Shown: piece after piece, positions 1,746 through 63,659 of the stretch | How the letters are laid out: each line of letters begins with the position of its first letter | Position numbering within the stretch: the stretch's first letter is position 1 | NCBI GenBank assembly: GCA_026874595.1 | Contig: CM049313.1 | Coordinates: 71,046,659 to 71,110,658, forward strand | Direction of reading: 5' to 3' | From: Sipunculus nudus | Lineage: Eukaryota; Annelida; Sipuncula; Golfingiida; Sipunculidae | DNA length: 64,000 nt | The notes under the pieces: model-generated | What the model saw: the letters and a program-made list of their open reading frames with translations, nothing else | Databases searched by the model: none | Told to the model about the DNA's origin: nothing | Made by a program: the position numbers and the translations under genes

Positions 1746-1774
1746 CCTTGGATGGCTTTATAACAAACACCAAC

Positions 1775-4400
1775 AAGGGACTCATTGGTCACGGCGCTCA
1801 GCTGTTATATATGATAAAAAAATACGATCTAGAAATGAGCCTCGTGCTGGTTTTGTGTGGTAATAAATATAAGCTTTTTATGAGTCGTTAGTGTTTAGCT
1901 TATGTATGATTTTGATAGTATCTTTGGAGACAGGGAAGAGGATAGATTTCATTTATTTTATTAACAAATGGAGTGCTATTGTCACACAGATTTTGACTTG
2001 GCCATATAACTTATAAGCAGCACATATAATATAAGAGTTTAACTATTTATTAAAATTTGATAACAAATATTGTGCCAAATATAATTTTTATTAAAAAATA
2101 AGAGAATCATATGATTTTTTTAAAATAAAATATATCTGAAATGATAATTAGAATAATATTATAGAATATATTCATGAATGCATTCATAAATACATTTCGA
2201 AAGTATTTGCACTGGTATTCATATACTTTCATTTTTACCTGAATTCCCATTCTGATGCAAGAAATTTTATAATGGAGTACATATTCATATTCGTATTCAA
2301 ATACATTTACTAAGTATTCGCACCATGTCTGGTATTTATTCAGTTTTAACCAAACAATGATGTTGAGAATCCAGAATATACAAAATTCACACATTTAAAT
2401 AATGATCATACGTACCTGGTTTTATGGCTTTTATTTATATTTAAAAAAAATAAACGTAATATATTCATTCTGGACTAATTCCACATCAATGTACACACTA
2501 GACACAGTAGGAATATAGATTAAAATTATCAACTGCATCTTTGTCTATCATTAATTTCCATCATATGATACCTAATGATTAGTTAGAATAATATGATTTA
2601 TTTTTTTATCATTAAAATTGAACTGAAAAATACCATAGGTGACTGCATGGTGTTATTTGGAATACGTGACATTCTGCCCATCGATACAAGATTCTTATAT
2701 TATCAGTAACTGCAAGTTAATTTCCTGTTACTCATCAACTAACAAATTCCTTTTCTATTTTTCTTTAATTTGTTATTAAAAACCAATAAAAATTTATTAA
2801 TTTATTGTTTATTGTTATGTTGTTGGTTAAAACAACTACTAGATGAGTTGGGTTGGACACCTGGATCAACTGTGGCTGGCCATAAGCTGCCTGGCTGCCC
2901 CACTTTATGCCTCGCTTCAAGCGTGCATTTTTGCTCAAAGGTCAACAAGGTCAACATACAGGTGACTCAAGAGGGGCTGGGGAGAGCCAAGGTCTGACAT
3001 GGTCTTATAAAAACATTAATAAAAGCTACAATTTTTGGCCAATTTCTTTCAGCTTTCTAAACTAAAACGCTGAAATCCTTAAGTGTGCATGATATGAAAA
3101 TTATATCAACAGTGCTTACAGGAAACAAACGTGCCATGGTCAAATTTGGGCAAAATTTATGGTACTAATTTTATATTTATACTAATAACTTATAAATTTT
3201 GAAAAATTCAGAACTAATTTTGAGTATTCAATTGAATCTTGATTAAATAATGTTACAGCCCTGACAAAAAATCTATAGCTTCAGCAATCCTCTTGTTAAG
3301 GGAGTAAATATATGTCTTGATTTTTTACCAAGTGCATAATGTTTGGGCCCATAACTTAAAACAATTACGCAATACTGACATCATTTCTGGCATGTGCATA
3401 GCGAATGTATAGAAAAATAAATATATTAAACATGATTAAAGTCAGATCTGCGGTTTTAATATTAGGCAGTCTTGAAGTGTAACAATGGGTTTTTAATGGA
3501 AAAATGAAGTTTTTCATTAATATCTCGAAGGTATTAAGTCCTAGTGACCAAATTCTTGGCATGGTAGGGAAATTTGGAGACATCTAACTGTATGCCAAAT
3601 TTCAGGAATTTAGAGCTAAAGCTGGGGAGCTTAGCTCTTGCAAACTGCATAACACTAGCTTGATGTAAACAATGTTACATGGTGCTTGAAAACTTGAATA
3701 AAATCTACAGTTTTTGATCAACTGGTTTCAAATTTTTGGTGTTAACAGACGAAATGCTAACAAAAACATGCTGTGAAAATCAAATCCACAGTATTTACAG
3801 GAAAAAAAGTGTCATGGTTAAATTTGGGCAAAATTTAAGGTACCAATTTTTTATTTTTGCTAATATTTTAAAAAATTTAAAAGATTTTGATCTTATTTTG
3901 GGTATACAATTAAATTTTGATTAATTTAAATTATATTACTGGAAAAAAGTCCATAGCTTTAACATGTTTTGTGTTAAGTGATCTAATATCTTTCCTGATT
4001 TTTTACAAAATGCATTATGTTTGGGCCCATAACTTTTTTAAAATTATATAATAGAGACATAATTTCTGGCATGTACATAGGAACTATATTTAGGAAAATT
4101 TATGGTAAATATGAGGCAATACAGATGAGTGGTTTTGATAATAGGCAGTCCTGAAGTGTGAAAATAGGTTTTTAATAAAAGAATTGAGGTTTTTCCTTAA
4201 TTTCTCAAAGGAACAAGGTCGCAAAGACCCAGTTTTCGGCTTGGTAGGAGATCTTGGGGACATCTAACATTCTGCCGAATTTTGGATTCCTAGGTCTTAC
4301 GGTTTCAAAACGTGCCACATCTACGGACAGACGGACGGACGGACGGACGACGGACAATGGACCACGACAATAGCTCAGATGACTTATAGTCAGCTGAGCT
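1775..4400 (+). mobile_element. Non-coding element with conserved ends, copy 1 (body E)
   Basis: It starts with 'AAGGGACTCATTGGTCACGG' followed by CGCTCAGCTG. It ends with a (CGGA)n tract (about 4325-4350), then GACGGACAA, then a terminal hairpin with arms AGCTCAGATGACT and AGTCAGCTGAGCT. Flanking DNA on both sides reads as one interrupted family A copy ('ttataacaaacac' on the left, 'aaaaatGGTGGCGCCACC' on the right), which fixes the ends to within a few bases. The body has no ORF of note and contains two related units about 678 bp apart ('gtttgggccc' at 3341 and 4019). Most of the body is shared with 18790-22802. The superfamily is unknown. Confidence 0.75.
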
Positions 4401-4800
4401 AAAAATGGTGGCGCCACCTGCAACCATTTTTGCACAGCGTCCATCTGTTCATCTGCCTTGGGATAAATTCACTCATATCTCGGCAGTGGTAGGACTTATA
4501 TACCTAAAATTTTGCAGGTTTATACATCCTAGACAGATTTCTTGATTTTATGAAAGGTGGCGCCACCTTCATTCACGTTTATGCTGTAGACATTCAAGCT
4601 CATATCTCGGAAACCGTTTGACCGATTGGGCCACAATTTTGCGAAATAATTAATAAAAAATAAAAATACGAAAAAGAGGTTGCGCCATATTCAAAAATTT
4701 TTGCACTGCGTCCGTCTGTTTGTCTGCCGTGGGATAAAATCACTCGTATCTCGGCAGTGGTTTGATTAAGATCACATGGAGTCATGGATAGGTCAATTTC
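4401..4800 (-). repeat. Family A repeat resumed after the element insertion
   Basis: This continues family A in minus orientation, with GGTGGCGCCACC at 4407-4418 and about 4557-4568, 'ccatttttgcacagcgtcc', and 'ggaaaccgtttgaccgatt' near 4607. It joins logically to the family A sequence ending at 1774, so the element at 1775-4400 interrupts one copy. Confidence 0.7.
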
Positions 4801-4887
4801 TGATAAATCGACACATTAGAAAATATAACAGACGTGGAGTTATGAGAAAACGGAAGTCATATTTTGCAAGGTATAGATGCCCAGATG

Positions 4888-5330
4888 AGGTCATAAGGAT
4901 TATGGTCCGCAGTTTTCCTGCGAAGAATTCGCATGATTCTCACACAAATGGGAATTCGGACACTTGACCAGAAGTCCAGGACACCACTAGACCAATGGAA
5001 TTGACTGTTAAAAAAACAAGAACTAATAAAGATACAAAAGAAGCTCACAAAGACCAATTAATGGTATTATAAGACCACAGGGTTGCACATTCACAAAACA
5101 CACTCACCACACTAGCTCTGCAAGTCTTTTGTACAGAAGAACAAAAAACATTACTGCTTACAGCAAAAAAGCTCCTGCAACCTTCAATAGAAACCAAAAA
5201 AAAAAAAAAAGAAGAGAAGCTACACAAATCAATGCAAAAGCTGGCGTACTACTATTACAGAACAGCTAAAGACCTTCAAGATCTGAAAGGCCAAAGTGTT
5301 AGACTGAAACCAATTAAACGGACATAATCA
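4888..5330 (+). pseudogene. Ty3/gypsy integrase relic (core end and C-terminal part)
   Basis: Translation around 4895-5000 gives an integrase-core remnant, 'GPQFSCEEFA' then 'FSHKWEFGH', followed by a decayed 'TNG' block before the catalytic Glu region. After a frame change, 5047-5328 reads in one frame with a single stop as 'TLLLTAKKLLQPS' and 'YYYRTAKDLQDLKG' then 'VRLKP'. That is the usual C-terminal pattern of K02A2.6-type gypsy integrases. The first catalytic Asp region, protease and reverse transcriptase are absent, and no LTR was found nearby. It is an old fragment with no likely function. Family assignment rests on motif recognition only. Confidence 0.6.
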
Positions 5331-5639
5331 GGAGAAATTATGCCTTTACTTTTTCACTATCAGTTAATTTTTGCTTTATACAAAAGTTTCCCATCAAAAC
5401 TATCCCAGCACACACTCATATTTTCTTATATACTTTATTATGGCTCTGCGTGTTGGTAAACAAAGCCCTCGTGTGTCTGTTTACCATCAAAACGCCGCGT
5501 GACCGTAGGTCCGATTGTGAGCCGCAGCAAGGGATGTTTCAACCGTTGGGAACAAGTATTACATTTTTAGGGCCAATCAGTCAAGGCATCTCCTGATGGA
5601 CTCGGGTTGTGGCCCGGTCAATACACGCGCTGTGTTTAA
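5331..5639. other. No gene seen; short inverted repeat
   Basis: No coding signal is visible. A small inverted repeat, 'TTGGTAAACA' near 5453 and 'TGTTTACCAT' near 5481, could form a hairpin. GC rises toward 5600, next to the MITE. Confidence 0.4.
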
Positions 5640-6037
5640 GCTGTGTTTCCATTCATCCGTAAATCTCGTACGTCTCATACGCAAAAAATCGGATCCCTCT
5701 TTTTAAGATGAACTCTTTCCATATGTACGTTTTAACGTGCTCCGCAAGCGTATCCGCAAAAACGGACAGCATCGAAACGGATCGGTGAGCGATTCATCCG
5801 TTTTGCGGATGGCAAAAATGTCTACATTTCCCAACAGTGTCCCAGCGCCAGGTGTGATGAGACATATTGACCTTCTTCCTGCCTGTCGTCCTTGCAGTTT
5901 CAAAAGAGGCACGTTAAAGGGTATCCGTAAGAAAAACGTAAGTACTTATGGAAACAGTTTTGACGGACTGCATGCGCACTAGGGAGCGTACGTACGTCTC
6001 TTGCGGATACGAATTTAACGGATACATGGAAACACTG
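5640..6037. mobile_element. MITE with about 22-bp terminal inverted repeats
   Basis: The left end 'GCTGTGTTTCCATTCATCCG' at 5640 is matched by the complement of 6016-6037 ('GCAGTGTTTCCATGTATCCG'). Both continue into T/A then 'AAAT', and both interiors have 'CGTACG' and 'ATACGC/ATCCGC' motifs. The element is about 400 bp with no transposase. No clear target duplication is seen, so the DNA-transposon superfamily stays open. Confidence 0.65.
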
Positions 6038-6109
6038 CTTTATTATGTTGACACCTGTGATCTCGCCCGGGGCCACTGATTTTAACACGCGTTTACAGGA
6101 GTAAGCAAA

Positions 6110-7413
6110 ATGTTTGAGAGCAATATTTTGGCAGATAGAGATTTAATTTAAAGGGAAGAAGCTATTTTCCGTGATAATTCAACATGTCCCGATTATTTTG
6201 TTGGAAGGTGCTCTCTCATATTAAAGAGCGGCGCTAAAAGGGCACATGTTCTTGCAAAGACTGTTAATTATTTTTCAGAGTTGTTCACTGATGTGGAAAA
6301 CAGCCAACTATGACGCTGACTTCAAATCTTAAATCATGCAGAGGCTTACTAGAAGTTGTCGTTTAAGTGAAAGAAACCAGGAAGCTTTTTTTGATGAGAA
6401 AATAACAGACTTTGAACTGACATATGCTGACATAACTGAAAACTGAAAAAAAGGAAAGACAGCAGGTCCTGATATTTTTTTCTGCTCATGAAACATGTAT
6501 AACATGTAATACTCGGGGACAAAAATTTCAAAACTAAACACCTTGACATGTGTGTTTATACGATCTAATCTATCAAGTAGACACATCCCGAATGAGATTA
6601 ATTTTGGTTTAATTGTTATTATATTAAAAATCCATCGTAGAAAAATGTAGCCCAGATAACTACAAGGATGTCATCTTACTTCCTTGTTTCTATAGATTGC
6701 TCGAGATAATTATTCTGAATACAGCTGAGAAGTTTTCACATTATTAAGGATGTCTTTACAAGATAATATGCAAGGGGTCTTCCAGCTAGGTCTTTGGGCC
6801 TTACACACTTCATTTAACCTTCGTTAATGTGTATGTCACACTTTTAAAACGCTGTTCTCACATTTATGCCTGTGTTCTCGACAGTGAAAAAAAACTTTTG
6901 ATAGGTCAGAATTTTTTGTTAAATTTTATGATTTTGGTGTAACCGGGGTCATGTTGCACCTCCTTCGGAAGATTTCCTCTTAACTGACCTGCGCAGCACT
7001 TTCTGCCCGCCATAGAAGCGAAGCCAATAAATTCGTCACACTTTTCGTCAGGGAGGCGTTTTATCGCATTGGCTAAATCTTTCATATATAAATGGGCTTC
7101 TTTTCAAACTGTGAAACTGTGGCCGTAGGGCCAAAATAAAAAGGATCCCCGACAAGCAGATGATGTGCGCTCCTTTCCGTTAAAACGCCATCCGGATTAC
7201 AATGCAGGATCAACATTTACTATGATTATGTATGTTAATGGCGGTTTTCGTATATTTTTAATGAAAGAGCCCTCATGGTGTTCGGGGAATCCTAACATTC
7301 ATCCCGATAAAAAAACTTAACAGCAGATCATATAAATTGGAAATGAACAAATTCCTGTGACTAATAAAATTAAACACCTGGGAACTGTAATCAATGCTAC
7401 TTTGTCATCACTT
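6110..7413 (+). pseudogene. Non-LTR retrotransposon reverse transcriptase relic, 5' piece
   Basis: Reading across several frames gives non-LTR reverse transcriptase blocks in the right order. 'SCRLSERNQEAFFDEKITD' and 'KKGKTAGPDIF' lie near 6345-6475, then 'NYKDVILLPCFYRLLEIIIL' (6660-6720), 'GVFQLGLWALHTSFNLR' (6775-6830), and finally 'VTNKIKHLGTVINATLSS' (7357-7410). Many stops and shifts separate the blocks. The stretch 6900-7060 does not fit and may be an insertion. The sequence stops at 7413, where a hAT element begins, and resumes at 10286. I did not assign a clade. Confidence 0.65.
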
Positions 7414-7739
7414 CAGGCCTCGAATTTGACGACCGGCAACCGGCAAATGCCGGTTAAAATTGGCTGGCTGCCGTCAGCCACGATCCTGACCGGCAGCTTG
7501 CTGCCGGTCAAAAAATTCCTCACTGCGTCCTTTTCGTCTGTACACAATCACAATCGCAGCCACTCTATATGCTTTTTAATTTAAAAAAAACTTAGTGTTA
7601 CTGGTTCCCCGTTTACGAGGAAACTGGCCTGGGAAACCAGCAAATGAGCCGATAGTCTCTTACAGTGACACACAGTGGTGCTAAGCTAGCCACCATTCGG
7701 ATCTACTCGGGCAAATTCCGGGAACATTTCAGATAAACA

Positions 7740-9158
7740 AGTGACCCATGAGTCATGACGCTAAGCCGACTGACATGTTGACAATATGTCCTTGCACAGA
7801 CAACTAATTAAGGTAATGTAGGTGGCATCATTGTTCATGCATATTAGCTTAAGTTCATCAAGACCCATAAGCACAACAAATCTGATTACAAACCAACCAG
7901 CCTTTCAGGCAATTTGTGTGTATTTTGCATTATTTCTACTGTGCTCAAACATAACCCAAAACTCTGAGAATATAGTTCACTGTGACCCAATTTCAGGTTT
8001 CTGGGGAGAACTTTTGAGGAACTCTCAGGATGTCAAGTTAGAAGCTTCTCGGCCCAAAGGTTATGATTTGTGTCCTACTTTGGTATCAGATTTTCAATTA
8101 TTCTAAGGGGTCCTTATATTTATAAGCCCCATAGCTCAGAAAATATGGGTAACAGAGACCTAAATACACTTTTCCAAGGAGATGTTCATAGACCTCCCTG
8201 GATTTTAGGTTAGAAGAATCAAGGTCCAATGTTTATGATTTGTGCCCTGCTTAGGTATCAAATTTTTAATTATGATGGGGGGGTGCTTATAAGCCTATAG
8301 CTCAGAGAATATGGGTAACAGAGACCTAATTTCAGGTTGCCATGGAGACTTTTCATGTGAGTCTCTGGATGTAAAGTGGGAAGATTCTATGTCTAGTTGT
8401 TACAATTTGAGCCCTGTTAACAGATGACGGCATCTTTTGAGGTCTCAAAAATATATAAAAAAATAGTTAAAAAATCGAAAAAAAAAACAGGTGGCAACAC
8501 CAGGCTGCAGAAACTGATGAAAAACTCCATTATGAATATCCATGCAAAGAATCATGGTGATCAATGCATTAATTGTTCAGATACTTGAGCTTTTGTATCA
8601 AATTTTTCATTATTCTGAGGGTACTTCGGAGCCCCATAGCTGTAAGAATATGGGTAACAGAGACATAATTCAAGGTTTCCAAGAAGACTTTTCTGGGACC
8701 TCTCTGGATGTAAAGTGAGAAGATTCCAGGTCCACCGATTACAAGTTTTGCCCTGTTAACAGATGACGGCATCTTTTGAGGTCTCAAGAATAGAGAAAAA
8801 AAATCGTTAAAAAAACCCCAAAAAATACAGGTGGCGCCACCAGTCTGCAGAAACTGATGAAACACTCCACGATCAATATCCATGCATTAGTTTTTCAGAA
8901 ATTTGAGCTTTTGTATCAAATTTTTCTATTTTCTGTGGGGGTACTTCGGAGCCCCATAGCTCAAAGAATAAGGGTAACAGAGACCTTATTCTAGGTTTCC
9001 AAGGTTTTTACATGGACCTCTCAGGATGTAAAGTTAGAAGATTCTAGATCAAGCGGTTACGATTTGTGCCCTGTTAACGGATAGACGGCCGGACAGCCGG
9101 ACGGACGACGGACAAAAAGTGATTGCTAAAGCTCAGATGACTTACAGTCAGCTGAGCT
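7740..9158 (+). mobile_element. Non-coding element with conserved ends, copy 4 (body B)
   Basis: The head is 'gtgacccatgagtcatgacg' then 'ctaagc', a degraded form of the head seen at 1775 and 18790. The tail has the CGGACGG/GACGGACAA tract (9076-9115) and the terminal hairpin 'AGCTCAGATGACT'...'CAGCTGAGCT' ending at 9158. The body has three or four related units ('ggtaacagagacc' recurs near 8145, 8305, 8652 and 8971) and a GGTGGCGCCACC at 8830-8841. Its right part matches 12930-13203. It lies inside the hAT element. No coding potential. Confidence 0.65.
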
Positions 9159-9249
9159 AAAAACGGCTGCCCGTCGGCCAATCAGAAAAATTATCTTTTA
9201 TGGCCGGCTGTTATCAGCCAATCATAGCTAAGCGTAGCGGTTACTGAAG

Positions 9250-9320
9250 CGTGGGCTACACTGCTACGCGTTATCCGATTGGTCCGCTATATAAGGATAT
9301 TGGTAATACAGTTTCGCGGG
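9250..9320 (+). promoter_or_regulatory. Candidate promoter of the hAT element
   Basis: An inverted CCAAT box (ATTGG, 9278-9282) lies just before a TATA box (TATATAA, 9288-9294), about 245 bases upstream of the ATG at 9538. A polyadenylation-type AATAAA occurs at about 9402. The ORF downstream reads in the same direction. The box spacing is tighter than usual, so this is suggestive only. Confidence 0.4.
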
Positions 9321-9537
9321 AGACTACATCGTATCCACGCTGTGTTCAGTTGTAAAAACCCGCGTACCTCGTGTTTAACATACATTTTATATCAATAAAT
9401 ACTGGGAACACCATAAATATATCTATTATAAGGTCTATCATCGTCCAAATTAGGCCTGCTATTAAATTTTGACCTGGTAAAAACATTCCCATTTCCCAAC
9501 CCTCGTCCGTGTCTCCATTTCATCCACCGTCGTCACG

Positions 9538-10077
9538 ATGGCTGAATCAGTAAAACTTAGCACTGTCAGAAAATGGCAAAGCCAGTACGACTGGTTGCAG
9601 TACGAAACTGACGAATATGGTTACGTGTTATTGATATGGTGCAGCCTTTGCAGACGATAAAAGGGGAGGATTTTAAGTGCCAGAAATTTTAGTGCAAAGT
9701 ATGTCGAGGGTACACAAAATATAAAGTTGGACATGGTGAAACACATGCTGGATAGGACCTGCATACACTTGCCTTACGAATTTCACTGGAAGAATTAGAG
9801 GCGGGGCCCAGTAAATGTAATCGGCCTAAGGAGGGTGTTTTCGTCAAAGCCTTTGCACTTCAGGAAAAAGATGCTCGGGACAAGTTAGCAAAACTAATTG
9901 AAACGTCATATTTCACTACCGAAGAAGAACTCCCCTTCTCCCTCTTTCCAAAACTAGTTGAACTGGAGAAAAAACATGGAGCCGATCTTGGAAATGCTTA
10001 CATAATTGATAAGATCAGAAGAGGCGAATACAGGAAGAGCAGCAAAACAGTTTTGAGGACTGGCCAAAGATGACTCG
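9538..10077 (+). pseudogene. Broken hAT-like ORF (Cys-containing N-terminal region)
   Basis: An ATG at 9538 opens 40 codons ('KWQSQYDWLQYETDEYG', then a C-x2-C 'CSLC') before a stop at 9658. A shifted frame continues with 'GRILSARNFSAKYVEG'. From about 9795 a third frame reads 'KLAKLIETSYFTTEEELPF' then 'LFPKLVELEKKHGADLG', and stops near 10071. This order of a W...WL...C-x2-C head and an 'ELPF..FPKL' block resembles hAT-like proteins of the ZNF862/C17orf113 type. The catalytic domain and C-terminal dimerisation region are absent. An AATAAA follows at about 10110. The assignment is by pattern recognition. Confidence 0.5.
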
Positions 10078-10285
10078 GGGACACCTGTTGACTATTTGTC
10101 CGTGAATGATAAATAAAACATACTTTGATATTTCTTTTTTCTTATTTAGACTTTATTCCAAATAAAATAGTTCAAACAAATGAAAAAAATTGAAAAATGC
10201 CTGTCAAATTTCTTTGTTGCCTGTCAAGTTCAAATTTGACAGGCAGCAGTAGCTTGTTATTTTCAAAAATGAAATTCGAGGCCTG

Positions 10286-11040
10286 CATTTAAAAGATGTG
10301 CCACTTAGAGGAAAAGAGACTTTCATGTCCTTGGCTGGCAGCGGTGTTCGGCAAGGGGGCCGAAACCCGTTGAATATATGTATATGATATATAAGGCAAT
10401 AGTGCTTCCACGTGTACTGTATGCCGCGATGCTTTGGCATTCTATCTCGTCAAATGATATGGTCTGTCTTGAGCAAATGCATCGGTGATGTCTTGAAAAA
10501 GCCCAGGTATAGCCACAGATGAGGAGATTTGACATAGCAATTAGTTTACCTGGGATCACACGACAAAAGGCATTCACAGGTAGGATTAAATTATTATTTT
10601 CGGTTTGCTACACCGAAAGGAAGCAAGTATAGTTTGCCTCCGCATTCTCATGGTCCGCTAATCCAGTTGCATCTCTATAGACAAAGGTGGTCCTCTGAGG
10701 AAGTGAATGGTTCGGTGGCAGAGTACAGTTTCCTATTGTACAAGTATGATCTACTGCCCAATTTCTTTAAGAACATTTTTCAATGAAAATTTACCAGAGA
10801 AAAGGTATTAGAAAAATATTGTCACTAACAAAATTGTCCAGTACGAAGATAGATAATTATATCTTCGTACATCTCATAATTCTGAATGTTCAATGTTTGT
10901 GCAAATTAAGCCGAAATGTTTTATCTGCAGCCCTTGCTTTGAATGTATCAACGCTGTCCCAATCTCTCTCCTTAATATAATGTATATGGTACAGCTGTCA
11001 GCATCATATGGCGAATTACTATCTGCCCCATGAAATGTTA
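10286..11040 (+). pseudogene. Non-LTR reverse transcriptase relic, 3' piece
   Basis: This resumes the relic interrupted at 7413. Blocks include 'GKETFMSLAGSGVRQGG' then 'NPLNIY' (10315-10380), a decayed 'ASTCTVCRDALAF' region, 'ANASVMS' near 10478, and near 10530 'DIAISLPGIT'. These are the C-terminal landmarks that follow the 'KHLG' block in many animal non-LTR polymerases. Later segments ('RQRWSSEEVNGSVAEYSFLL' near 10680) look like the poorly conserved tail. Stops are frequent. The join to 7413 across the hAT is coherent. Confidence 0.6.
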
Positions 11041-11850
11041 TGTCATACATGTTGAAAACTTGTATGACACACACCTAACTTTTGCATTTTTCATTATGTG
11101 ATGCGACTTTCACAGCCTGTATGTGTATATTGTATGTTGTATATTACACAACCGTATGTATTTCCATTTTGCTGTGTTTTCTGAATAATCTTGACGATAT
11201 TGAACTTATACAACTTATCCTAAGTAAAGAAACAGATTGTTTATCTGAACATGATCATGTATTCTTCATGTACACGTGTTATGTTTTGAGGTATAAAATG
11301 ACCTACTACTGCCGGAATCGCACATACGGCCTTAAAACCAGTGTGCGAGTAACCGTGAATCTGTATTGCGTAATCATGAGGACATTAAGCTGTTTTGCAT
11401 ACCTATTTTCATGTTTCTCAATATATTGTATGTTTCACTTTTTTCTGAACTGAACTGATTGTATACTCTTCCAATTCTGAGTAATATAGATTATTAAAGA
11501 AACAATCAATCACTAGAGTAGTGTTCATTTTGATTCAACACAGCTAAATGACTCGATCCGCAGCGCAGCACAGCTAACTTAACCGATATTTTAATTGGAA
11601 TATGAACAATTATGCACAGGTAAATACGGCAGGTTGTGAAAAGTTCTCTGATCTTGTTATTAATTATACGAGCTACTGTGTGTCTTCTCACTTGGTTTAT
11701 ATCATCTGCGCGCGGTCAACAACGTTCATTCACCAAGGAAAACGGCCTGACAAAAGATATAAAAACAACATATGATATCATGAAATAAAGATGAAATAAA
11801 ATAACAGATGGGTCCCATAAGACCCCGTCGCCGAAATCCGGTGCGTTCCA
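11041..11850. other. AT-rich sequence, no gene seen
   Basis: Probably 3' untranslated sequence of the non-LTR relic followed by unrelated DNA. An open frame of 123 codons (11082-11453) is hydrophobic and Cys/Tyr-rich by composition, shows no domain, and is treated as chance. Nothing else is supported. Confidence 0.3.
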
Positions 11851-12029
11851 AACAAGGCCTACAGGCCTAATGCGAACCTGTGCATTGGGAAATACACCAG
11901 GTATAATGCTTCAATGCTGGACCATGACTTCTCATGTATATGAACAATGCAGGTACTAAACATTTTGAATAAGAAACAATTACACAAACATCACTGCTGA
12001 AATTCTGGCATGGGTGCACACAACACAAC
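11851..12029 (+). repeat. Family F repeat, left piece of copy 1
   Basis: It begins 'aaacaaggcctacaggccta' then 'atgcga', matching 'aaacaaggcctacagccc' at 18060. It is cut at 12029 by an element copy, and related sequence resumes after 13203. Confidence 0.55.
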
Positions 12030-13203
12030 TAGGGACCCATGGGTCTCACCGCTCAGTTGAATATGTCTATAATATTTTGAAGGAAATTTTTCAGAATGAC
12101 AGTCCTGTGACCTTAATCAATGACCTTGTAACCAAAAAATCTTAGAACTTAATATCCTTGAACTTGCAGCATTAGGATTATTGTAACAAATACATAAAAA
12201 GTGACCTTGACCTCTGACCTGATAACCTCAAATTCTCCAGATTTCCTCACTTTGGGCAAGTAAGCCATGTGTGAACGTTGGAAAGTTCAGGATGAAAAGT
12301 TTGATTTACAGTGTATCCACAATCTTTTTAAAGATGTGGCTTCTGTTACCTTCATCTTAGATCGCTGGACCCTGAAAATCAAAATGAATTTTTTGAAGTT
12401 TGTCTGTCTATCCAAAGCAGAATTATCATCCATAAACTAATTTGTGAATGGATGGGCCCTGTGACCTTGACCTTTGACCTATGACCAAAAAATCAAACAG
12501 AATCTTCCCCTAGTGGCAGGTTAGCAATATCCTGAAGATGGAAGGTTTGCGATGAAAAGTTTGGCTTCAAATGCATACACATTCCTTAGTGGTGGGCCAT
12601 TTATAAGTTAAGTTTGAAACCAATATATCAAACTTAACTGGAGTTATCATCTGGAAACTAATTTGTGTGGATGGACGGATTGACAGACAGACAGACATAC
12701 AACAGACAGACTGACAGACAGGGTGATTAGTATAGGCCATCCACTTGTGATCAATAAACACACCAGGCTTTGGGACACCAGATGTAATGACAGCTGAGAA
12801 ACTGACATGATTGTTGTCATTTTATAGTAAATAAATAGAAAAATATTTGTTAAAATAGGAAAACCACCACGTTTCAGGAACTGACAAAACTAGTCATGGT
12901 CAATATTCAAGGCAAAATTCATGACAAATCATGCATTAATTATCAAGATATTGGAAGTTTTGTATCAATTTTTTTCTATTCTTGGGGGTACCTTCAAGCC
13001 CCATAGCTCAAAGGAAAAAGAACGCAGTGACCTAATTTCAGTTTTCCAAGGAAATTTTCAATTGACCTCCCTGGATGTTCACTTAGAAGTTTCTAGGACA
13101 AGCTGTTATGATTTATGCCCTGCTAACAGACGGCCGGAAGTCCAGACGGACGACGGACAAAGCGCCATTCCTATACCTCAGTTGACTTACGGTCAGCCGA
13201 GCT
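12030..13203 (+). mobile_element. Non-coding element with conserved ends, copy 3 (body B)
   Basis: The head is 'AGGGACCCATGGGTCTCACC' then GCTCAG. The tail has GACGGACGACGGACAA (13145-13160) and a degraded hairpin ending 'GGTCAGCCGAGCT' at 13203. The right 300 bases match body B of 7740-9158 ('gccccatagctcaaagg', 'ccctggatgt'). The left part contains phrases with 'TGACCTTGACCT' (about 12208 and 12465). The flanks are 'gcacacaacacaact' and 'aaaaatgattgtagctggca', again an A-rich target beside a palindrome-like GG-C-CC motif. No ORF. Confidence 0.65.
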
Positions 13204-13990
13204 AAAAATGATTGTAGCTGGCACCACCAGTCTTGTATGCAAAAGGTTTCAGAGATATATACATATGCCAAAGTTCAGACTGATATATCAAACCCCTTCT
13301 GAAAATAAGCAGGAACACACACTGTGCAAAAAATTATTGTAGGTGCACCACCAGTCTTGTATACGACAAGTATACGATAATTAAAATACGATAGGTATAA
13401 TTATGCCCAATTTCAGGATGACATATCAAATTCCTCTATAGAAACAAGCAGGCACAAAAGTCACACACTGTGCAAATGTCATTGTAGGTGGTGACACCCG
13501 TCTTGTGAGCGAGAAACCCATCAAAGACACATAGACAGGTCAAAATATTAGGCCAATACAACAAACTTACCTTGGGGCTGACCACGCTTAGGTGAGAAAG
13601 GCTTGGGTGAGAAAGGCAGTTGCCCCGAGTAAACTGTGACAAATTTACTAGCTCAGGCTACTGCACTGAGTGAACTCATGACCTGCACCTGGCTAGAGTG
13701 GGTGAACTTTTGACCTGTACGTGGCTGCACTGAGTGAACCCTTGACCTGTTGCCTAATCTGATACAGTTGGCAGTCTGCCAAAGCTATAAATAGATTGGC
13801 TTCACATGCAGCCCTGAGGGGCATGGCACCCATGAGGTTATCACATGGTGCCCATGAGGTGTTCACATGTTCCCCATCAGGGGATCACATGCCTTATGTA
13901 TGGCTGCACTGACTGACCTTTTGACCTTTATCTGAATGAACTCTTGATCTATTGCCAAATCTGAAACAGTTGGCAGTTTCTTAACCTATG
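13204..13990 (+). repeat. Family F repeat, internal sub-repeats
   Basis: Sub-units with 'ccaccagtcttgta' recur at about 13226 and 13350, with a weaker one near 13495, each followed by 'tttcag..gatatatcaaa'. The same series occurs at 18190-18480. No coding signal. Confidence 0.55.
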
Positions 13991-16510
13991 TAAATATACA
14001 GAAACAATCTTGGCCTGTTGGCAAATATGTTTACACATTCTGAAAGACTTTGGCTAAAATGCTTTTTTTCCAGCTGAAATATTCATAAACTTTTTATCAA
14101 AATATCTAGAAAAATAAAAGATTCAGTTCTTTCATTGTTAAAGGCCCAATAATTCCGCCAAAAATCATTCAAGTGAACTTGAACAAAGGCCACCTAAGAA
14201 TAATTTTTGTGCCATGTTACAGAAGTAATAATTAAAACAATAATTTTTTAGAAGAACAGTTTTGCAGTCCTCAGTTTGAGTTAGACATAATAATGGCCAT
14301 AAGACCAACTTAAGTTTTTCTGATATGATTTAAAGAACCATGTCCTAGGATAATTCTTTTGAAAAATTGAACGATTCAACTTGACAGTTTCATCATCAAC
14401 ATTTTAAGCTGAAAGAGGCTAAAATTATGAGGTTTTTGCCCATAAAATGTCATAAGAGGTCAATGTAGGTGGCACATCAAAATCTGTAACTTCAAATATG
14501 AGTCATGTGACCAACATTTGCACAATACTTGGTAATGCTAGCTTCTGTCATTTCTGAGATAACTATGTCAGTATGCTTACTTGGACAAATGACCTTTTAA
14601 ATTCATTTAACTCCACTAAAATTCATCAAATGCAAACCATTTGAACAAACTTGAGAGTGCTTGCCTCTGGGATCATGTCTGTAAAATATTGAACAATTTG
14701 GCTGGACCGTTTACAAGAAGACTTTTAAAGGTTTTTCAGCTTTTCCCCTATAAAATCTAAGTAAATGCAGATAGCAAAAAACATAAGCTGAATCCCACAA
14801 CATTTGGTATGTGACAGATAATTGCATAAAATCTGGGGATGGTAGCTCCTGCAATTCCTGAGAAATTATGGGTTGATATGCAGATGACCAATGACCCCCG
14901 TACAAAAAAAAGGTCAATGCAGGTGGCGCCACCAATACCTAAATTTCATATATGATTCATATATGACCAACACTGGCATAACATTTGGTGATGATAGCTG
15001 TGGCCGTTTCTGAGATTGTCATTTTAGTATGCTTTTTTGGACAGATGACTAGGTTCAACTTCCTGTAATTCGGCCAAAATTCACAGAACTTGAACCATTT
15101 GAACAAATTTGAGAGAGATGGTATAAAAGATTATTTCTGTGAAATATTGAACAAATTGGCTCGACCGTTTCAGATGAGAAGATTTTTAAAGGTTTTTTAG
15201 CTTTTTCTCTATAAAATCTAAGAAAATGCAGATTTTTGTCAGATGGCTAATTTTTTGCATTAGATTTCATGATGCTAGCTCCAGTCGTTTTTGAAATAGT
15301 ATGGGTTAACGTATACCTGTGATTGTAAAATTACCTGGCATGAGGAATATCTAAAATCATAAATTTACATTTTTTCAAAGTTTTTAAAAAACATTCTTGT
15401 CAATATTAACCAAAGATAACCTGAAATCTAAATGTCTCGAGGCATGATGTAACGGATGCTGATAAACTGGTTCCAGGCTAGATGTATCTGCTTCACACAG
15501 CTAGCATATATGGTAAAATGAGTCAATTCAATCTTTATTATTCAGCCGAAATTCATTCTTTGGAACCATAAAAGACAATTATTATAAGAATTATTCAGGG
15601 GATTATTCTTGTAAAATATTAAACAAATTGGCCTCAGTGGCGTCAGTCAAAAACGTTTTGCAGGTTTAAAACTCATATGGGAAAATAAAGCAAAATGGCT
15701 AAGTTAAGCTTCCAATAACTCAGCCAAAATCACTGAACCAAAACCATTAGAACAAACTTGAATTATCAACATCTAAGGATAATAAATGTGTGAGATTTAA
15801 GAATATGGCCCAGTGGTTTCTGAGAAGAAGATCATTGTAGCAACTGAGCTAAAATGGGCTGTTATGGCATATGACTAAATTCAGCTTCCCATAACTCAGC
15901 CAAAAGTCACTGAACTGAGACCATTTGAACAAACTTCAGAAAGCATTACCCTAGGATCATTTCTGTGCGATATTAAACAATTTGGCCAAATATGTTTCAG
16001 AGAAGAAGTTTTTTGTAGCTGTCAGTATGATACGGGCACTGATGAGCCCCGTTCAAAAAAGGCCAAAGCAGGTGGCGCCACCAATACCTGAAATTCAGAC
16101 ATGACTCATGTGACCAACATTGGCATAAAATTTGGTGATGACAGCTCCAGCCGTTTCTAAGATCGTAATTTTAGTATGCTTTTTTTGGACAGATGACTAA
16201 GTTCAACTTAGTCACCGAACTTAAACCATTCGAACAAACTTGAGAGAGATTGTTCCTGGAATCATTTCTGTGAAATTTTGGACAATTTGGCTGAACAGTT
16301 TCGGCGAAGAAGATTTTTAAAGTTTTTTTTAGCTTTTTCTCTATAAAATCTAAGAAAATGCAGGTAGCCGAAAAATAAGCAAAATCCGATAGAGTTTTTT
16401 AGATGAATAATTTTTTGCAGAAAATTTCTTGATGCTAACCCTTGCCATTTTCAAGATAGTATTAGTTAACGTACAGACGACGGCCGACGGACGACGCCAC
16501 ACCATCGCAT
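13991..16510 (+). repeat. Family C repeat, internally repetitive
   Basis: Repeated blocks include 'ctataaaatctaag' at about 14749, 15210 and 16340, 'gaccaacat' blocks near 14512, 14967 and 16110, and GGTGGCGCCACC at 14922-14933 and 16071-16082. It ends with a GACGGACGACG tract (about 16478) and 'tatgctcacaggttcgctaa', a weaker version of the hairpin tails elsewhere. No gene is visible. Confidence 0.55.
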
Positions 16511-18055
16511 ATGCTCACAGGTTCGCTAAAAAATATAATCGTGCGTTATAAACCACATCTACTGGTTACCGGAACATCTGCAGGGCAGAAAGAAGGTGCA
16601 TCACGGGAGTTGTCTACCAACAACCAGTTAGAGCAAAATATGCAAGTAATGAAATGACGACAGTTTGGGAACCACACAGAAAACCTTAATAGAGAATTAT
16701 TTTTTATTCCAAAAAAAATATGATTTCACCAAAGATCTTGAAACAAGTAAGAACAAGGGGGGGAGGGGTGCTATGAAACTGATCGTTCAGCACAGGTAGT
16801 AATGGGGCAGTTGTCCATAATTTCGTGTCCGCTGGTCTCGTTCTGCAGGAGGTCGTATAATCCAAGTGCATTTAACTAGAAAAAACGATCCGTGCTTTAG
16901 TAAAACAATCTGAATCGTTGTTCTCGGTGGTCGGCCAGATCAGGTTAATATCATAATCCCCCCAATACACACATTACAAAAGAACTTTCATAACGTGCTT
17001 ACTTTCCCCCGCTTCTGCGGAACGGGGGACATTGATTTGGGCTTGTCTACCTGTCCCTCTGTCTGTCTGCCTGTCCGTCCGTCAGGTTCGTTTCCGACCG
17101 ATAACTTTTCTAAATATTATCGGATTTCATTCATACTGGGTCAGTGATCGATCTCATGCATAGCTTGGTTGGCATTGGTTTTGGAGTGTCTGTCTCACAA
17201 ATAATTCCCACCAGTTCAAAATAAAATTATCAATTTTTGGTCCAATTTCTCAATGTTTTAGTTTTTATGTTTGCCTGCAGATGCCTCCACATGTCATAGT
17301 GGATCTGTTTAATTTTTAATGTGCCCTCAAGTTTTCTCCACAGTTCATAATTTTGGTTGCTTATCAAGCATGAAGGACAACAAGATTCAAAAGCTGGGGA
17401 CATTATCTCCACGAATTTGCTTGTGTTCATTTTTAGAATATATTTTATTAATATTCCATGATGCCTTACTTAACTCTATCATAGAAACCCTATCTACAGA
17501 TGAGTTTTAAACATAGACTTGTTAATTGTCAATCAAGTATTATACCTGTATTGCTGTAACTACATACAATTCAAAAGAATTAGCAAAATATAATGTAAAG
17601 ACATTAATTCCTATTAAGTATCTTAAAATTTAGAGGGTAAATTATAACCTAAATTTCAAAATGTTCTGATTAAATCAAAGTATCTTATAATTCAGAGGGT
17701 AAAATATGAATTTAATTTCCAAATACTCCAAAATATTTAATCATAATATATTATAATTCAGAAGGTAAAATTTAACTTTAATTTCCCAATACTCTGATTA
17801 AAACATTCTGCTTTGAAGATCAGTTATTTATTAAGTTAAAAGAGACTTGCCCATCTAGTTCATTACATTTAAGATTGTATTCTAAATAAAATTCATCTTG
17901 TATGGATTACTCATGAATATTGATATTATACATTAATTTCCGTATTAAATATTAATTTATATTTTAATAAAGAAGATACTATATTGTGGCATTATGGATT
18001 TTTTAGTGATTTTACTTTTATAAAATTTCTTTCCAATTCAATTTCAACATTTAAT
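16511..18055. other. No gene seen; small AT-rich tandem near 17.7 kb
   Basis: At 17007-17030 'cccccgcttctgcggaacgg' followed by 'ggg' forms a short hairpin followed by CTGTC/CCGTCC repeats, probably the start of another repeat. At about 17610-17810 a unit of roughly 65 bases ('ttcagagggtaaaa') occurs three times. The rest is AT-rich without recognisable content. Confidence 0.35.
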
Positions 18056-18059
18056 TATT

Positions 18060-18789
18060 AAAACAAGGCCTACAGCCCTAATGCGATCCTGTGCATGGGA
18101 TATACATTAGGTATGTTGCTTCCATGATAACATGCTTGGTGGTTTCAAGTACGATGTGAAAACTAAACATTTAAAAAACAAGTATGTATACATATGCCCA
18201 ATTTCAGGTTGATATATCAAATCCCTACTTATGTATAAGCAGGGACATAACACTGTGCCATAATTAATGTAGATGGCACCACCAGTCTTGTATACAACTA
18301 ATCTGATATGTATAGAAATGCACAATTGCAGGCAGATATATCAAACACCTCCCGTGAAATAAGCACAGACATACACACTGCAAATGTCATTAAGGAGTCA
18401 TTGTACAAGAATGCCATCAAAGAAGCAATATACAGGCCAACATTTCAGGCTGGTATATCAAACTTCTCTTGAGTCAGATGCACTGGGCTGACCAAGCTCA
18501 ATTGAGGCAAGCAGTTCCCAAAAGTCAAGCGAAGCAATTTGGCAGGTGCAGCTACTGCACTTAATGAACTCTTGACCTGTGCCTGGCTGCACGGAGTGAT
18601 TCCTGACCTGTTGTAAAACCAGGTACAGTTGGGCGGCTGCAAAAACTATAAATAGATCTAGACTGAGACTTGGCCAGTTGCCAATTCTGAAATAGCTGGG
18701 AAGCTATTTATAGATACAAACTCTATCTTGCCCAGTCTATTCCCATACAACTGAAAACCTTTACCACTAGGATAATTCCTGTGAAAAAC
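18060..18789 (+). repeat. Family F and C pieces left of element copy 2
   Basis: It starts 'aacaaggcctacagccctaa' like 11851, and continues with sub-repeats carrying 'ggcaccaccagtcttgtata'. The last bases, 'taccactaggataattcctg', resemble family C at about 14342. Family C sequence then resumes at 22803, so the element at 18790-22802 interrupts a pre-existing repeat. Confidence 0.55.
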
Positions 18790-20145
18790 AAGGGACCCAT
18801 GGGTCACGGCGCTCAGCTGATCATGATTGGACTATAAATGTATCACCATTGTGATACTATATTGAGTAGATAAAGCTTAGAATATCATGGTCATGTTGGG
18901 CATATAATGTAATATGTGAGTAAATTATATATAAAATAACCTGACTGATGGATTAATATGGAGTAAAATATGGTGGTTTATTTTTTATTTATTTGGGAGG
19001 GATCAACAAAAGCAATTTATTTGAGCAAATATGAATGCAATGACAGTATGCTAAGCAGTGGTATAATGATGATAAGGCTATTTGTTGAAGGATCTATAGT
19101 GTATGGAAAACTGCAAGAGTTCAATTTGACAGATACAAGGTTATGATTAACTATGCTGATGAGGGGATTTATGAATTTGTGACTGTATGACATAATATCT
19201 TGACAAGATCGGTCTTGACAAGGTGCATTATTTTGATGCCCCTCACGTCTACATATTACACAATATTGACATAAATTCTGGCATGTACATAGGTACCTAT
19301 GGACAAATGGTCAACAGTACTGAACCACCTGGAAGGTTAAAATCTTAAAAATATGATGAAATGTAGATAATGTTTGAGAGGAAGAGGTAATCTGGGCCAT
19401 GGTTGGTTTATATGATTGAAGAAAATGTTGCAAATAATATTTGAGACCTGACCATGTCTTTCCATTGGTTACCTTTTTGATAAGCTGTTGACAGTTCAAC
19501 TGTTTACACATTTGTCTGATGAGATCCAATTTATTTGGTAAACCTTTTTTATCAATTTTAAGATATGTATACAGTTGCCATAACGTCCCAATTCCACGGG
19601 TGCAATGACTTGATTGGGGGGGGGGGGGGGTGTTGTGTTATGATCAGAGTTACAATGCCTCTGTCTCTCTGTAGATATTTTCTTTAATTATTAAATTTTA
19701 TGCTATAGCCATAGAACTATTGTTCACAGTGCCAAGAAGCATAGCCTCAGTGGGATGAAGAAGGGGATGGTGAGAGTTACAACACCCTTGCATATACATA
19801 CAGGATATGAAATTTAATTCAACAGTGCTTATAAAAAAAAGTTTATTCATGAACATTAAATATTTGAAACAGACAGAAAGATGGAGAAACAAAGCAAATA
19901 ATTGTTTCCCCATTCTACTGAGCCAAGGAAAAATTAACAATATTTGCATTTATTCCTTTTTTTCATTACATAATTTTAATCCAAGTTTCCGAATGTTACT
20001 ATAAATTTACAGTATAACATACATGTGATTGTGAATATTTCAGTTGATTCACATTTCTAAATTGCATCAACATTAATAGCTAATGTATCTAGTTTATAGT
20101 ACCTGTCAACAGAATGGAATGGAGGGAGGAAGGGAGGTAATTAGG

Positions 20146-20181
<36 letters not shown>

Positions 20182-22802
20182 AAGAAAGATGGAGAAAGAA
20201 AGAGAAAAAGCAGGGGAGAGAGAGAAAGAAAGAGAGACCAAGACTGCCAGAGAGAGAGAGAAAGAGAGGCTCTCTGGTAATTACTGCCTGACCCAGCCTG
20301 ACCCAGACACTCACAGTGGCAGTAGGTCAGACCTGAAGGTGTTATGTAACTGCCCAGTGCACTGCATTTATACTGATCTGATGTAAACAATGAAGACATG
20401 GTACCAGGAAACTTAAAAAAAACTACAGTTTTTGATCAATTGGTTTCAAATTTCAGATTTTAACAGATGAAATGTTAACGTGTACATGCTGTGAAAATTA
20501 AATCCACAGCAGTAACAGGAAAAATTTGAATATTTATATTATTTTAAATTGTATCAGGAAAAAGAGAAAAGTATTCTCAGCTATAAAACTAATACATGTG
20601 TTAAAATTAATCCAAGGATCAAAACACCCAATATATCATACCAGGAGCAAACTGGTTGTTTGGAATGTTTAATTTTATGAACTGAAATAAAGGACCAGCA
20701 ATATAAATTTTGATTATTTAGCCACTATCATGTAACAACTGATACAACCATGAGTTATAAGTCAAACAAATTAAAATCCTTAATGAGCACTTGTTTGAGT
20801 AATATTTTAAATTTTTGACATTTATTTATTATTTTAATTTTGTAATAAATATAAACCAACAAGTTAAACACCTGGAAAAGACCTGGAAATTTAGATTAAT
20901 TTAATATAATTAACTTCATCCTTGTCTATCATTATCTTGCTTCATATAATCCCTAATAGTAAACAACAATTTATTTTAATTATTTATTTTTCATTTTTAT
21001 GGTTGAAATGAAAAATACCCAATGGTGACTGCATGGTGTCATTTGAAATACAATTTTGGCCATCCATGGAAGATCCATAAATGATCAGTAATTGCAAGGT
21101 AAACCCCTGTAACTCATTAACTTTAAATTACTTTTCCATCTATTTTTTTAAGTTCTTATCATAAACCAAGAATTAAAAAAAAGTTTATTGTTTATATGTT
21201 TATGGCCTAAACAAATACTAGTGGAGGGGGTTGGACAGTTATATCCAGTTGAAGCCACCCAAGAGCTGGCTGGCTGCAGAGTGCCGCGCTTCAAGCATGC
21301 ATAATTGGCCTGAAAGGTCAATGTGGGGACATAAAAGAGGGGCTTCAGTACAGCCAAGGTGTGATATGGTCTCATAAAAACTTTCATAAAAGCTAGTTTT
21401 TGACCAATTCCTTTTATAACTTCAGAATTTAGAAGCAAAAATCCTTACGTGTGCAAGATAAGAAAATTAAATCAACAGTGCTTACGGGGAAAAAACATGC
21501 CATGGCCAAAGTTGGGCAAAATTTAAGGTACTGATTTTATATTTATGCTAATAACTTATAAAATTTGAAAAATTCAGAACTAATTTTGGGAATACCCTTG
21601 AATCTTGATTAAATAATGTTATATCCCTGGCAAAAAATGTCTACCTTCAGCAATTTTCATGTTAAGAGAGTAAATATATTTCTTGATTTTTTACAAAGTG
21701 CATTATGTTTGGGCCTAGAACTTAAAACAATTACACAATACTGACATCATTTCTGGCATATGCATAGCGAATGTATAGAAAAATATGTATATTATATATG
21801 ATCAAAGTCAGATCAGTGGTTTTGATATTAGGCAATCTTAAAGTGTAACAATGGGGTTCTAATGGAAAAATGAAGTTTTTTCTTAATATCTCGAAGGAAT
21901 GCAGTCCTAGTGACCAAACTTTTAGTATGGTAGAGGATTTGGGGGACATCTAACTGTATGCAAAATTTAAGGAACTTAGAGCTGAAGCTGGGGAGCTGAG
22001 CTCTAATAAACTGCATAACACTAGCTTGATGTAAACAATATGTGACATGGTGCTTGAAAACTTGAATAAAATCTACAGTTTTTGATCACCTGGTTTCAAA
22101 TTTTTTGTTTAAACAGTTAAAATAGTAACAAAAACATGCTTTGAAAATTAAATCCACAGCAGTTACAGGGAAAAAAAACGTGCCATGGTCAAACTTGGGC
22201 AAAATTTAAGGTACCAATTTTATATTTTTGCCAATATTTAAAAAAATTTAACAGATTTTGATCTAATTTTTGGTACACAATTAAATTTTGATTATATAAA
22301 GTAGTATTACTGAAAAAAAATTCCTACCTTTAACACTTTTGGTCTTAAGTGACAAAATATCTTTCCTCATTTTTTTACAAAGTCCATTATGATTGGGCCT
22401 ATAACTTTTTTAAATTAAATAATACTGACTTAATTTCTGGCCTGTACATAGGAACCATATAGAGAAATATTTATGGTAAAAATGAAGAAAACCAGATGAG
22501 TGGTTTTGGTATTAGGCAGTCCTGAAGTGTGGAAATAGATTTCTAATAAAAAATTTAGGTTTTTCCTTAATATCTCGAAGGAACGAAGTCATATTGACCC
22601 AATTTTTGGCATGGTAGGAGATTTTGGGGACATCTAACTGTATGCCGAATTTCAGATTCGTAGGTCCAATGGTGTCGAAACGTGCCAGTCTTACGGACGG
22701 ACATCCGGACGGACAGACGGACGGAAGGACAGACAGACAGACGGACGGACGACGGACAATGGACCACGACTATAGCTCAGATGACTTATAGTCAGCTGAG
22801 CT
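18790..22802 (+). mobile_element. Non-coding element with conserved ends, copy 2 (body E, long)
   Basis: The head is 'AAGGGACCCATGGGTCACGG' then CGCTCAGCTGA. The tail is (CGGA)n at 22690-22760, GACGGACAA, and the hairpin with arms AGCTCAGATGACT and AGTCAGCTGAGCT ending at 22802. From about 20800 on it matches copy 1 (2400-4400) in the same orientation, including the two body units ('gggcct' landmarks at about 21710 and 22394, 684 apart). It is 1.4 kb longer on the left, where it includes a G-run (about 19617), a GA-rich microsatellite and a third, partial body unit (about 20380-20540). No ORF is credible. Confidence 0.75.
20134..20280 (+). repeat. GA-rich microsatellite
   Basis: Purine-only (GA)n with interspersed GAAA units. 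ORFs rich in Arg/Glu on one strand and Ser/Leu on the other are artefacts of this composition. Confidence 0.9.
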
Positions 22803-30862: not shown

Positions 30863-30899
30863 ACACGGATCCGTTAGAACCAATAAAAACGGTCATACC

Positions 30900-41836: not shown

Positions 41837-41838
41837 TA

Positions 41839-59466: not shown

Positions 59467-59489
59467 AACTGACTCATCTGAGTGTCCTT

Positions 59490-60195: not shown

Positions 60196-60201
60196 GAGTT
60201 C

Positions 60202-62177: not shown

Positions 62178-62190
62178 TGGTTTTGCTCCA

Positions 62191-63656: not shown

Positions 63657-63659
63657 AAC

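Follow-up and report, generated by a model that had tools for sequence, protein, structure and literature searches.

Four non-coding elements in a 64,000-nt stretch of Sipunculus nudus contig CM049313.1 (the window) have common ends and different bodies, which raises the question of what machinery moves them and where it is encoded. An original prediction, made from the sequence alone, regarded them as transposed elements whose machinery lies elsewhere and named non-autonomous Helentrons and an undescribed terminal-hairpin element as candidates. Coding copies with matching ends support the general idea; of the two candidates, the non-autonomous Helentron was supported and the terminal-hairpin element was not. 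The four elements are, with high confidence, non-autonomous Helentrons (HINEs), and autonomous Helentrons with the same kind of ends, encoded in the same genome, move them in trans. They belong to a large family of non-autonomous Helentrons; both ends identify the coding partner in one subfamily, and in another only the 3' end does. As a whole, the earlier observation was partly confirmed and its interpretation partly supported.

Anatomy and boundaries of the elements

Window coordinates are positions within the 64,000-nt stretch, and C1, C5 and so on denote chromosome loci of the same 1.43-Gb genome. All four predicted elements were found in place, with heads at 1775, 7739, 12030 and 18790; the corresponding tails end at 4400, 9158, 13203 and 22802. 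Their head-to-tail polarity had been reversed, as the 'tail hairpin' is the 5' end, the 'head' is the 3' end and Helentron polarity follows the minus strand of the window. The list of four was real but incomplete, since a fifth 5' end on the opposite strand had been missed.

Copy 1: 1772..4400, minus strand, HINE with B-type body, about 2.6 kb (3' end 1772-1804, 5' end 4372-4400)
Copy 2: 7736..9158, minus strand, HINE with E-type body, about 1.4 kb
Copy 3: 12027..13203, minus strand, HINE of about 1.2 kb whose 5' third holds E-type repeats
Copy 4: 18787..22802, minus strand, HINE with B-type body, about 4.0 kb
Fifth copy, truncated: 26616..26684, plus strand, oriented opposite to copies 1-4, 5' end (26616-26644) and microsatellite only, within an E-type fragment (26491-26608)

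Seven head matches were detected in the window at three or fewer mismatches, against 0.29 expected by chance; four were the elements, two were the same palindromes read from the other strand and one (36080) was unrelated. The predicted grouping of bodies, with an E set in copies 1 and 2 and a B set in copies 3 and 4, was wrong, as the members of each of these pairs have only their ends in common. The true pairs are copies 1 and 4, whose common body has 80.7 % identity over 1933 bp, and copies 2 and 3, with 76.8 % identity over 280 bp at the hairpin end and weaker repeats (comparisons among the window copies).

Read along the minus strand, each element starts at a T-run followed by the 5' subterminal inverted repeat (subTIR) AGCTCAGCTGACT, 3 nt, the inverted repeat (IR) AGTCATCTGAGCT and, in copies 1, 2 and 4, a GTCC-type microsatellite. 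The body follows, with tandem repeats in copies 1, 2 and 4, and then TCAGCTGAGC, GACCCATGGGTC and CCTTGTT or ACTTGTT. Behind the head, the block GCTCAGCTGA repeats the TCAGCTGAGC of the tail in inverted orientation.

5' subTIR: 22790..22802, minus strand, copy 4, AGCTCAGCTGACT in Helentron polarity; also 4388-4400 (copy 1), 9146-9158 (copy 2) and 13191-13203 (copy 3, two changes)
IR complementary to the 5' subTIR: 22774..22786, minus strand, copy 4, AGTCATCTGAGCT, 3 nt from the subTIR; also 4372-4384 (copy 1), 9130-9142 (copy 2) and 13175-13187 (copy 3)
GTCC-type microsatellite adjoining the 5' end: 22690..22757, minus strand, copy 4; also 4321-4353 (copy 1) and 9075-9112 (copy 2)
Central tandem repeats, from self-matches: 21360..22655, minus strand, copy 4, two units of ~0.68 kb; also about 2997-4282 (copy 1, ~0.68-kb units) and 7955-9089 (copy 2, ~0.34-kb units)
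3' subTIR: 18811..18820, minus strand, copy 4, inverted copy of the 5' subTIR, GCTCAGCTGA on the plus strand; also 1796-1805 (copy 1, one change)
3' palindrome, perfect: 12034..12045 (copy 3) and 18794..18805 (copy 4), minus strand, GACCCATGGGTC
3' palindrome, altered: 1779..1790 (copy 1), minus strand, imperfect, GACTCATTGGTC on the plus strand; 7743..7754 (copy 2), minus strand, one arm change

Copy 3 has only a remnant of the microsatellite and a weak self-match in place of the central tandem repeats. The 5' subTIR and IR fold as a hairpin (-9.8 kcal/mol, z -4.5), and the 12-nt 3' palindrome is perfect in 22 of the 32 ends collected and in two of the four window copies. At the 3' end the inverted subTIR match spans 10 bases (TCAGCTGAGC) in copy 4, with one or two changes in copies 1-3, which is slightly below the published 11-13 bp; in coding copies of the subfamily described below it spans 11 bases (GTCAGCTGAGC). 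The window copies thus carry the features of HINE membership, i.e. subTIRs (slightly short), IR, microsatellite, tandem repeats, 3' palindrome and a T-rich target. The view that such ends belong to no named superfamily was not supported, as subTIRs, IR with microsatellite, tandem repeats, a 3' palindrome and insertion at TT form the HINE/DINE-1 signature given in the excerpts of PMC4067079 and PMC7492417 drawn on here.

The A-rich flanks reported for the elements were confirmed. Among the ends found in the window and the other stretches read, coding and non-coding taken together, TTTTT precedes 18 of 25 5' ends and a T directly follows 88 % of 32 3' ends. Thirteen joined flank pairs were compared with the window and with fetched genome stretches, and a paralogous empty site was recovered for four, with a net difference of 2-4 bases beyond the block originally outlined. 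No target duplication was seen at these four sites, in line with the prediction, and the boundaries are consistent with a 5' junction between T and AGCTC and a 3' junction directly after CTTGTT, the T being ambiguous. The empty site of copy 1 lies in a 278-bp repeat array; that of copy 4, at 14345-14531, is weaker (77 % over 192 columns, with only 23 bases on the left side). The other two belong to nested copies at C1:2.23 Mb, where the 320-bp joined flanks of the outer element (stretch L022) gave a 95.3 % match to the uninterrupted body of copy 4. Copies 1 and 2 had both been thought to interrupt another repeat, which was confirmed for copy 1 by its empty site but not for copy 2, where no match spanning the site was found. 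The 278-bp unit, arrayed in tandem at window 648-1676 and in the right flank of copy 1, contains GGTGGCGCCACC, and an exact 31-mer occurs 2878 times in the genome.

Pairing of heads with tails was examined on C1:0-2.914 Mb, the stretch covered by both lists of the first 100 heads and first 100 tails. A same-strand exact tail lay downstream within 8 kb for 44 of 71 exact heads, giving pair lengths of 1.6-7.2 kb; 2000 circular shifts gave 13.1 such heads on average and never more than 26. This indicates that heads and tails belong together, as had been proposed.

Coding partners and their ends

A search of the genome with the Pfam Helitron_like_N profile gave at least 143 matches, from which six loci were first chosen by open-frame length, including A1-A4 and a C17 locus of the A5 subfamily. 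A near-exact end scan of these six detected one end, in C17, where a 3' end lies in sense orientation downstream of a 2342-aa frame. A long protein-coding member with the same ends, which the original prediction had proposed to look for, is present elsewhere in the genome. The C17 frame matches Helitron_like_N (PF14214, 98.6 bits), PIF1 helicase (PF05970, 82.3 bits) and DUF6570 (44.7 bits), so that Rep (HUH) and a PIF1-type helicase are joined in one protein. Domain scans of the coding copies gave no DDE transposase match. The N-terminus of the C17 protein (L018:3-2327, minus strand) matches Herpes_teg_N at 48.0 bits, whereas the Helentron of another clade in the window has OTU there; a literature search on Herpes_teg_N together with Helitron found nothing.

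Both element ends are present at three coding loci, C17:35.63, C5:42.91 and C10:71.60 Mb. Their 3' end lies ~4.68 kb downstream of the Rep domain, with 98.6-98.8 % identity among the copies over the last 1026-1131 bp and a stop of similarity at CACTTGTTT. Upstream, the 5' end with IR and microsatellite is present in these three and in C13, which has this end only, and homology among the copies begins at the T-run before AGCTCAGCTGACT. The elements of this A5 subfamily at C17, C5 and C10 are ~15-16 kb long and have a second 5' end inside their first repeats, as in the tandem copies with inner parts that lost the 3' end, a form mentioned in PMC7492417.

A 499-aa part of the C17 protein was then compared with the genome (86 of 414 candidates scored, at least 101 matches), and the 3' side was read for eleven clade loci (C17:35.63, C5:42.91, C10:71.60, C9:52.35, C13:9.11, C8:29.79, C8:22.65, C8:33.94, C7:71.19, C7:70.98 and C3:10.58). 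A sense-strand 3' end, at no more than 9 or 11 substitutions, was found downstream in 10 of these 11 loci and in none of seven other Helitron_like_N loci (Fisher P=2.5e-4). Without C7:70.98, a segmental duplicate of C7:71.19, the count was 9 of 10 (P=4.1e-4). The seven other loci were A1-A4 (~31 % identical) and C8:39.04, C7:16.04 and C3:41.77, which do not appear among the 101 clade matches listed, C7:16.04 and C3:41.77 being read over 1.8 kb only. As a control for chance neighbours, the same stretches contained 14 ends in sense and two in antisense.

Other candidate partners were rejected. The A1-A4 loci belong to another clade, with ~31 % protein identity to the C17 copy, and lack these ends in the stretches read. 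The long head-tail pairs read on C1 yielded no coding member: the frames in one of them (L026) are those of a nested non-LTR (long terminal repeat) retrotransposon and the others hold nested HINEs, with no long transposase-type frame. The nested retrotransposon (L026:3210-6517) has endonuclease and reverse transcriptase matches and lies in the same orientation as its host HINE. The window itself holds a second-clade Helentron (57980-64000, minus strand), broken up into several frames, with matches to OTU and Helitron_like_N; these ends are absent within the stretch read at 58-64 kb. One of its regions resembles the C-terminus of A1, where an endonuclease was suspected by eye only.

Subfamilies, mechanism and rival explanations

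Two kinds of 3' end occur in the window, ACTT in copy 2 and CCCT in copies 1, 3 and 4, and coding loci of the clade show both. The sequence ATCATGACCCATGGGTCACTT closes four loci with 98-100 % protein identity (one change at C10), two at 84-86 % end in GTCATGGCCCATGGGCCACTAGT or one change from it, and three at 65-66 % end in GCCGTGACCCATGGGTCCCT. On this evidence the machinery is a Helentron clade of several subfamilies and not a single element.

The bodies can be traced in part. When reverse-complemented, copy 2 aligns from the first base with the 5' region of the C10 element (80.8 % over 948 bp), indicating that copy 2 is the 5' repeat region of that Helentron in shortened form, closed by a 3' end of the ACTT type. 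Copy 3 has 68-75 % identity to the 5' region of autonomous copies over its first 340-375 bases, and the remainder is unmatched in that region apart from short microsatellite matches. Copy 3 combines an E-type 5' part with a CCCT-type 3' end, as expected if modules exchange. Copies 1 and 4 have only the first 60-120 bases in common with the C10 element. The 3' ends of copy 4 and of the C7:71.19 Mb locus agree at 34 of 34 bases, and copy 1 differs from the latter at 2 of 33. This locus encodes Helitron_like_N and PIF1 in a 1658-aa frame that ends in a stop, after which the same frame continues for 170 aa. Comparison with an independent copy at C3:10.58 (97.4 %) showed that homology does not extend past the 3' end, whereas upstream it reaches to the very edge of the stretch read.

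Helitron-type Rep/helicases use rolling-circle copying. Each element begins at a T-run with the 5' subTIR AGCTCAGCTGACT, and the Rep (HUH nuclease) of an autonomous copy would nick at this 5' end. The helicase would peel off one strand, the 3' subTIR and palindrome would stop the process, and the single-stranded copy would be joined into a T-rich target with no target duplication. Only the ends would be needed for movement, so that the bodies can differ. Copy 2 and the 5' third of copy 3 derive from the 5' repeats of one autonomous subfamily; in copies 1 and 4 a different body is joined to a 3' end that belongs to a related subfamily. The nicking, strand peeling, termination and bases read by Rep are proposed on the strength of published knowledge of Helitrons and Helentrons. 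The tests made here established the anatomy and boundaries of the elements, the lack of target duplication at four sites, the ends in common with coding copies and where the E body comes from. Rolling-circle copying that starts at the 5' subTIR and finishes at the 3' palindrome is the best explanation.

Several results weigh against elements of this kind being driven by these partners. At the insertion sites, no spanning match was obtained for 8 of 13 flank pairs, including copies 2 and 3, and one pairing in the nested locus L021 lacks ~17-21 bases present in its paralogs, through either a small deletion or a wrong pairing of ends. On C1:0-2.914 Mb the tail was on the wrong side for 27 of 71 heads, which blurs the pairing and fits nesting of elements. 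Folding of the 3' palindrome was no more stable than in shuffled sequences (z 0.77, 0.09 and -0.41), and its arms showed no clear covariation across 32 ends, the observed value being reached by 163 of 5000 shuffles. Among the coding copies, no 3' end could be recognised in C13, one of the four members of the A5 subfamily that were read on both sides. Two sense-strand 3' ends each were present at C10, C8:33.94, C9 and C3 (4 of 10 loci), and the homology boundary was tested only for C17/C5/C10 and for C7:71.19 against C3:10.58, so that elsewhere the end could be that of a neighbouring element. The B-type autonomous 5' end was not found within ~19 kb upstream at C7 or 10 kb at C3; a B-type driver is therefore only half shown, by its 3' end, and the stop after PIF1 in the C7 frame means that no intact one is shown. 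The C8:29.79 locus, at 88 % protein identity, is out of order, since it finishes in GATGTGACCCATCGGTCCCTT, a CCCT-type end altered at several positions, and 3' ends and protein thus agree only roughly. The endonuclease-like domain is weakly matched, Exo_endo_phos (PF03372) reaching 25.5 bits (cut-off 24.5) for the C-terminal 257 aa alone and 20.9 in a longer piece, and a solved-structure search with the C17 protein gave no endonuclease match.

These points leave some room for an undescribed terminal-hairpin transposon with its own transposase, whose likeness of ends would result from insertion beside Helentrons. The failure to find the B-type autonomous 5' end would fit this, the elements are common enough to adjoin many genes by chance, and extra ends occur near several loci. 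Such a transposon is nevertheless very improbable: both ends are the start and stop of homology among three autonomous copies, boundaries that largely refute it, the sense ends are distributed 10 of 11 against 0 of 7 and 14 against two in antisense, and the body of copy 2 derives from the same autonomous element. Cut-and-paste MITEs (miniature inverted-repeat transposable elements) or fold-back elements would account for the strong hairpin at the 5' end and the very high copy number, but deserve almost no weight given the asymmetric ends, the four empty sites without target duplication, and coding copies that carry Rep and helicase domains with no DDE match. Canonical Helitrons or Helitron2 have the same Rep/helicase core, and the extracts of PMC4067079 consulted describe Helitron2 as likewise having a rolling-circle Rep/helicase, asymmetrical inverted repeats and palindromes at both ends. 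Against them are the T-rich or TT target in place of insertion between A and T, the combination of subTIR, IR and microsatellite, and the weakly matched endonuclease-like C-terminal domain of the coding copy, no endonuclease being described for Helitron2 in those extracts. It is highly unlikely that they, and not Helentrons, are the source.

The elements read as HINEs have close counterparts, likened here by description of parts and not by sequence. Cg_HINE of the Pacific oyster, as portrayed in the sections of PMC7492417 used, likewise has a 5' subTIR, IR and GTCC/GTCY microsatellite on one side and a 3' subTIR and palindrome on the other, with central tandem repeats, a T-rich target, no target duplication and unique combinations of flanks and central repeats. 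It differs in that, according to its authors in those sections, none of 10 autonomous elements could be related to Cg_HINEs, whereas coding partners with the same ends are present here. In the DINE-1/HINE elements and Helentrons of Drosophila, mite and mosquito, PMC4067079 gives the same order of parts and ends common to coding and non-coding copies. The autonomous partner there is a Rep/helicase protein with a C-terminal endonuclease, a likeness for which the match here is weak. Differences from these Helentrons are the length of ~15-16 kb in the A5 subfamily and an N-terminus matching Herpes_teg_N rather than OTU.

Abundance and orientation in the genome

The exact 16-mer head occurs at 11,362 places in the genome (5678 plus, 5684 minus) and the exact hairpin tail at 25,393 (12900 plus, 12493 minus), with 0 for either reversed control. 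A tail variant, TTTCAG, occurs at 4850 places; C5, C10 and C13 have it at their 5' end, and C17 has it there with one change. The exact 36-mer of the A5-subfamily 3' end has 17 places, three of them at the coding loci C5, C9 and C17. Non-coding copies by far outnumber coding ones, for which the at least 143 Helitron_like_N matches cover all clades. The elements form a new and abundant family within a known kind of mobile DNA. The title of PMC4067079 names DINE-1, the Drosophila relative, as the repeat with the highest copy number in D. melanogaster, and according to PMC7492417 oyster HINEs spread satellite-like repeats but could not be linked to a coding partner. The S. nudus genome contains both coding and non-coding copies whose ends match, several coding subfamilies that can be told apart by their 3' ends, and non-coding bodies carrying either kind, so that which Rep reads which end becomes testable; the more than 11,000 exact heads and 25,000 exact tails are a rich collection of filled sites. 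Same-strand pairs of 5' ends 232-258 bp apart were also noted at C1:190972/191204, 223501/223759, 455490/455728 and 879876/880113. The last of these pairs lies in L026 and consists of a short 5' fragment of B type beside another 5' end, resembling tandem copies without a 3' end.

Near the start of C1 the orientation of the ends is biased and falls into long blocks. The 100 heads up to 5.0 Mb comprised 84 plus and 16 minus in 15 runs (shuffled mean 27.9), and the 100 tails up to 2.9 Mb comprised 93 plus and seven minus in five runs (shuffled mean 14.0), against 50/50 for both in the genome overall. A minus block at C1:1.235-1.331 Mb appears in both lists. Several tail variants agree with the bias, and TTTCAG tails at C1:3.13-3.19 Mb are oriented against the neighbouring heads. 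The flanks of five plus-strand copies and one minus-strand copy on C1 were unrelated, except for two in the same kind of HINE body. A control repeat, GGTGGCGCC, showed no orientation clustering (40 runs against 40.4; 100 listed of 2878 places, merged into 81). A protein-motif control for long interspersed nuclear elements (LINEs), with 446 matches, was not clustered among the 100 listed, which are too sparse, and a presumed LINE-end pattern matched only itself.

Taken whole, each of two further marker lists showed clustering (P about 0.0016); once near copies were merged, the clustering was gone from both beyond 5.05 Mb (P=0.77 and 0.14), and a genome-wide orientation rule was rejected as general on this basis. 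Among pairs of markers across the two lists beyond 5.05 Mb, orientation agreed in 31 of 41 at 20-100 kb (P=0.0015) and in 28 of 78 at 100-400 kb. Chromosome ends followed no one rule (100 listed of 394 places), with four minus at C3 right, three minus at C4 left, one minus at C2 left, one of each at C3 left and plus at C1 left. Insertion direction set regionally, e.g. by replication-fork direction or another strand asymmetry near some chromosome ends, is an unlikely explanation, and the C1 bias remains a local feature.

Elsewhere in the window, two arms at 352-594 resemble a long fold-back (palindromic) element and have matches both close to the C17 Helentron and in L023. Frames resembling those of LTR retrotransposons lie on both strands at 30801-33721, 36933-39167 and 41241-44754, the reverse transcriptase match being examined for 30801-32186 only.

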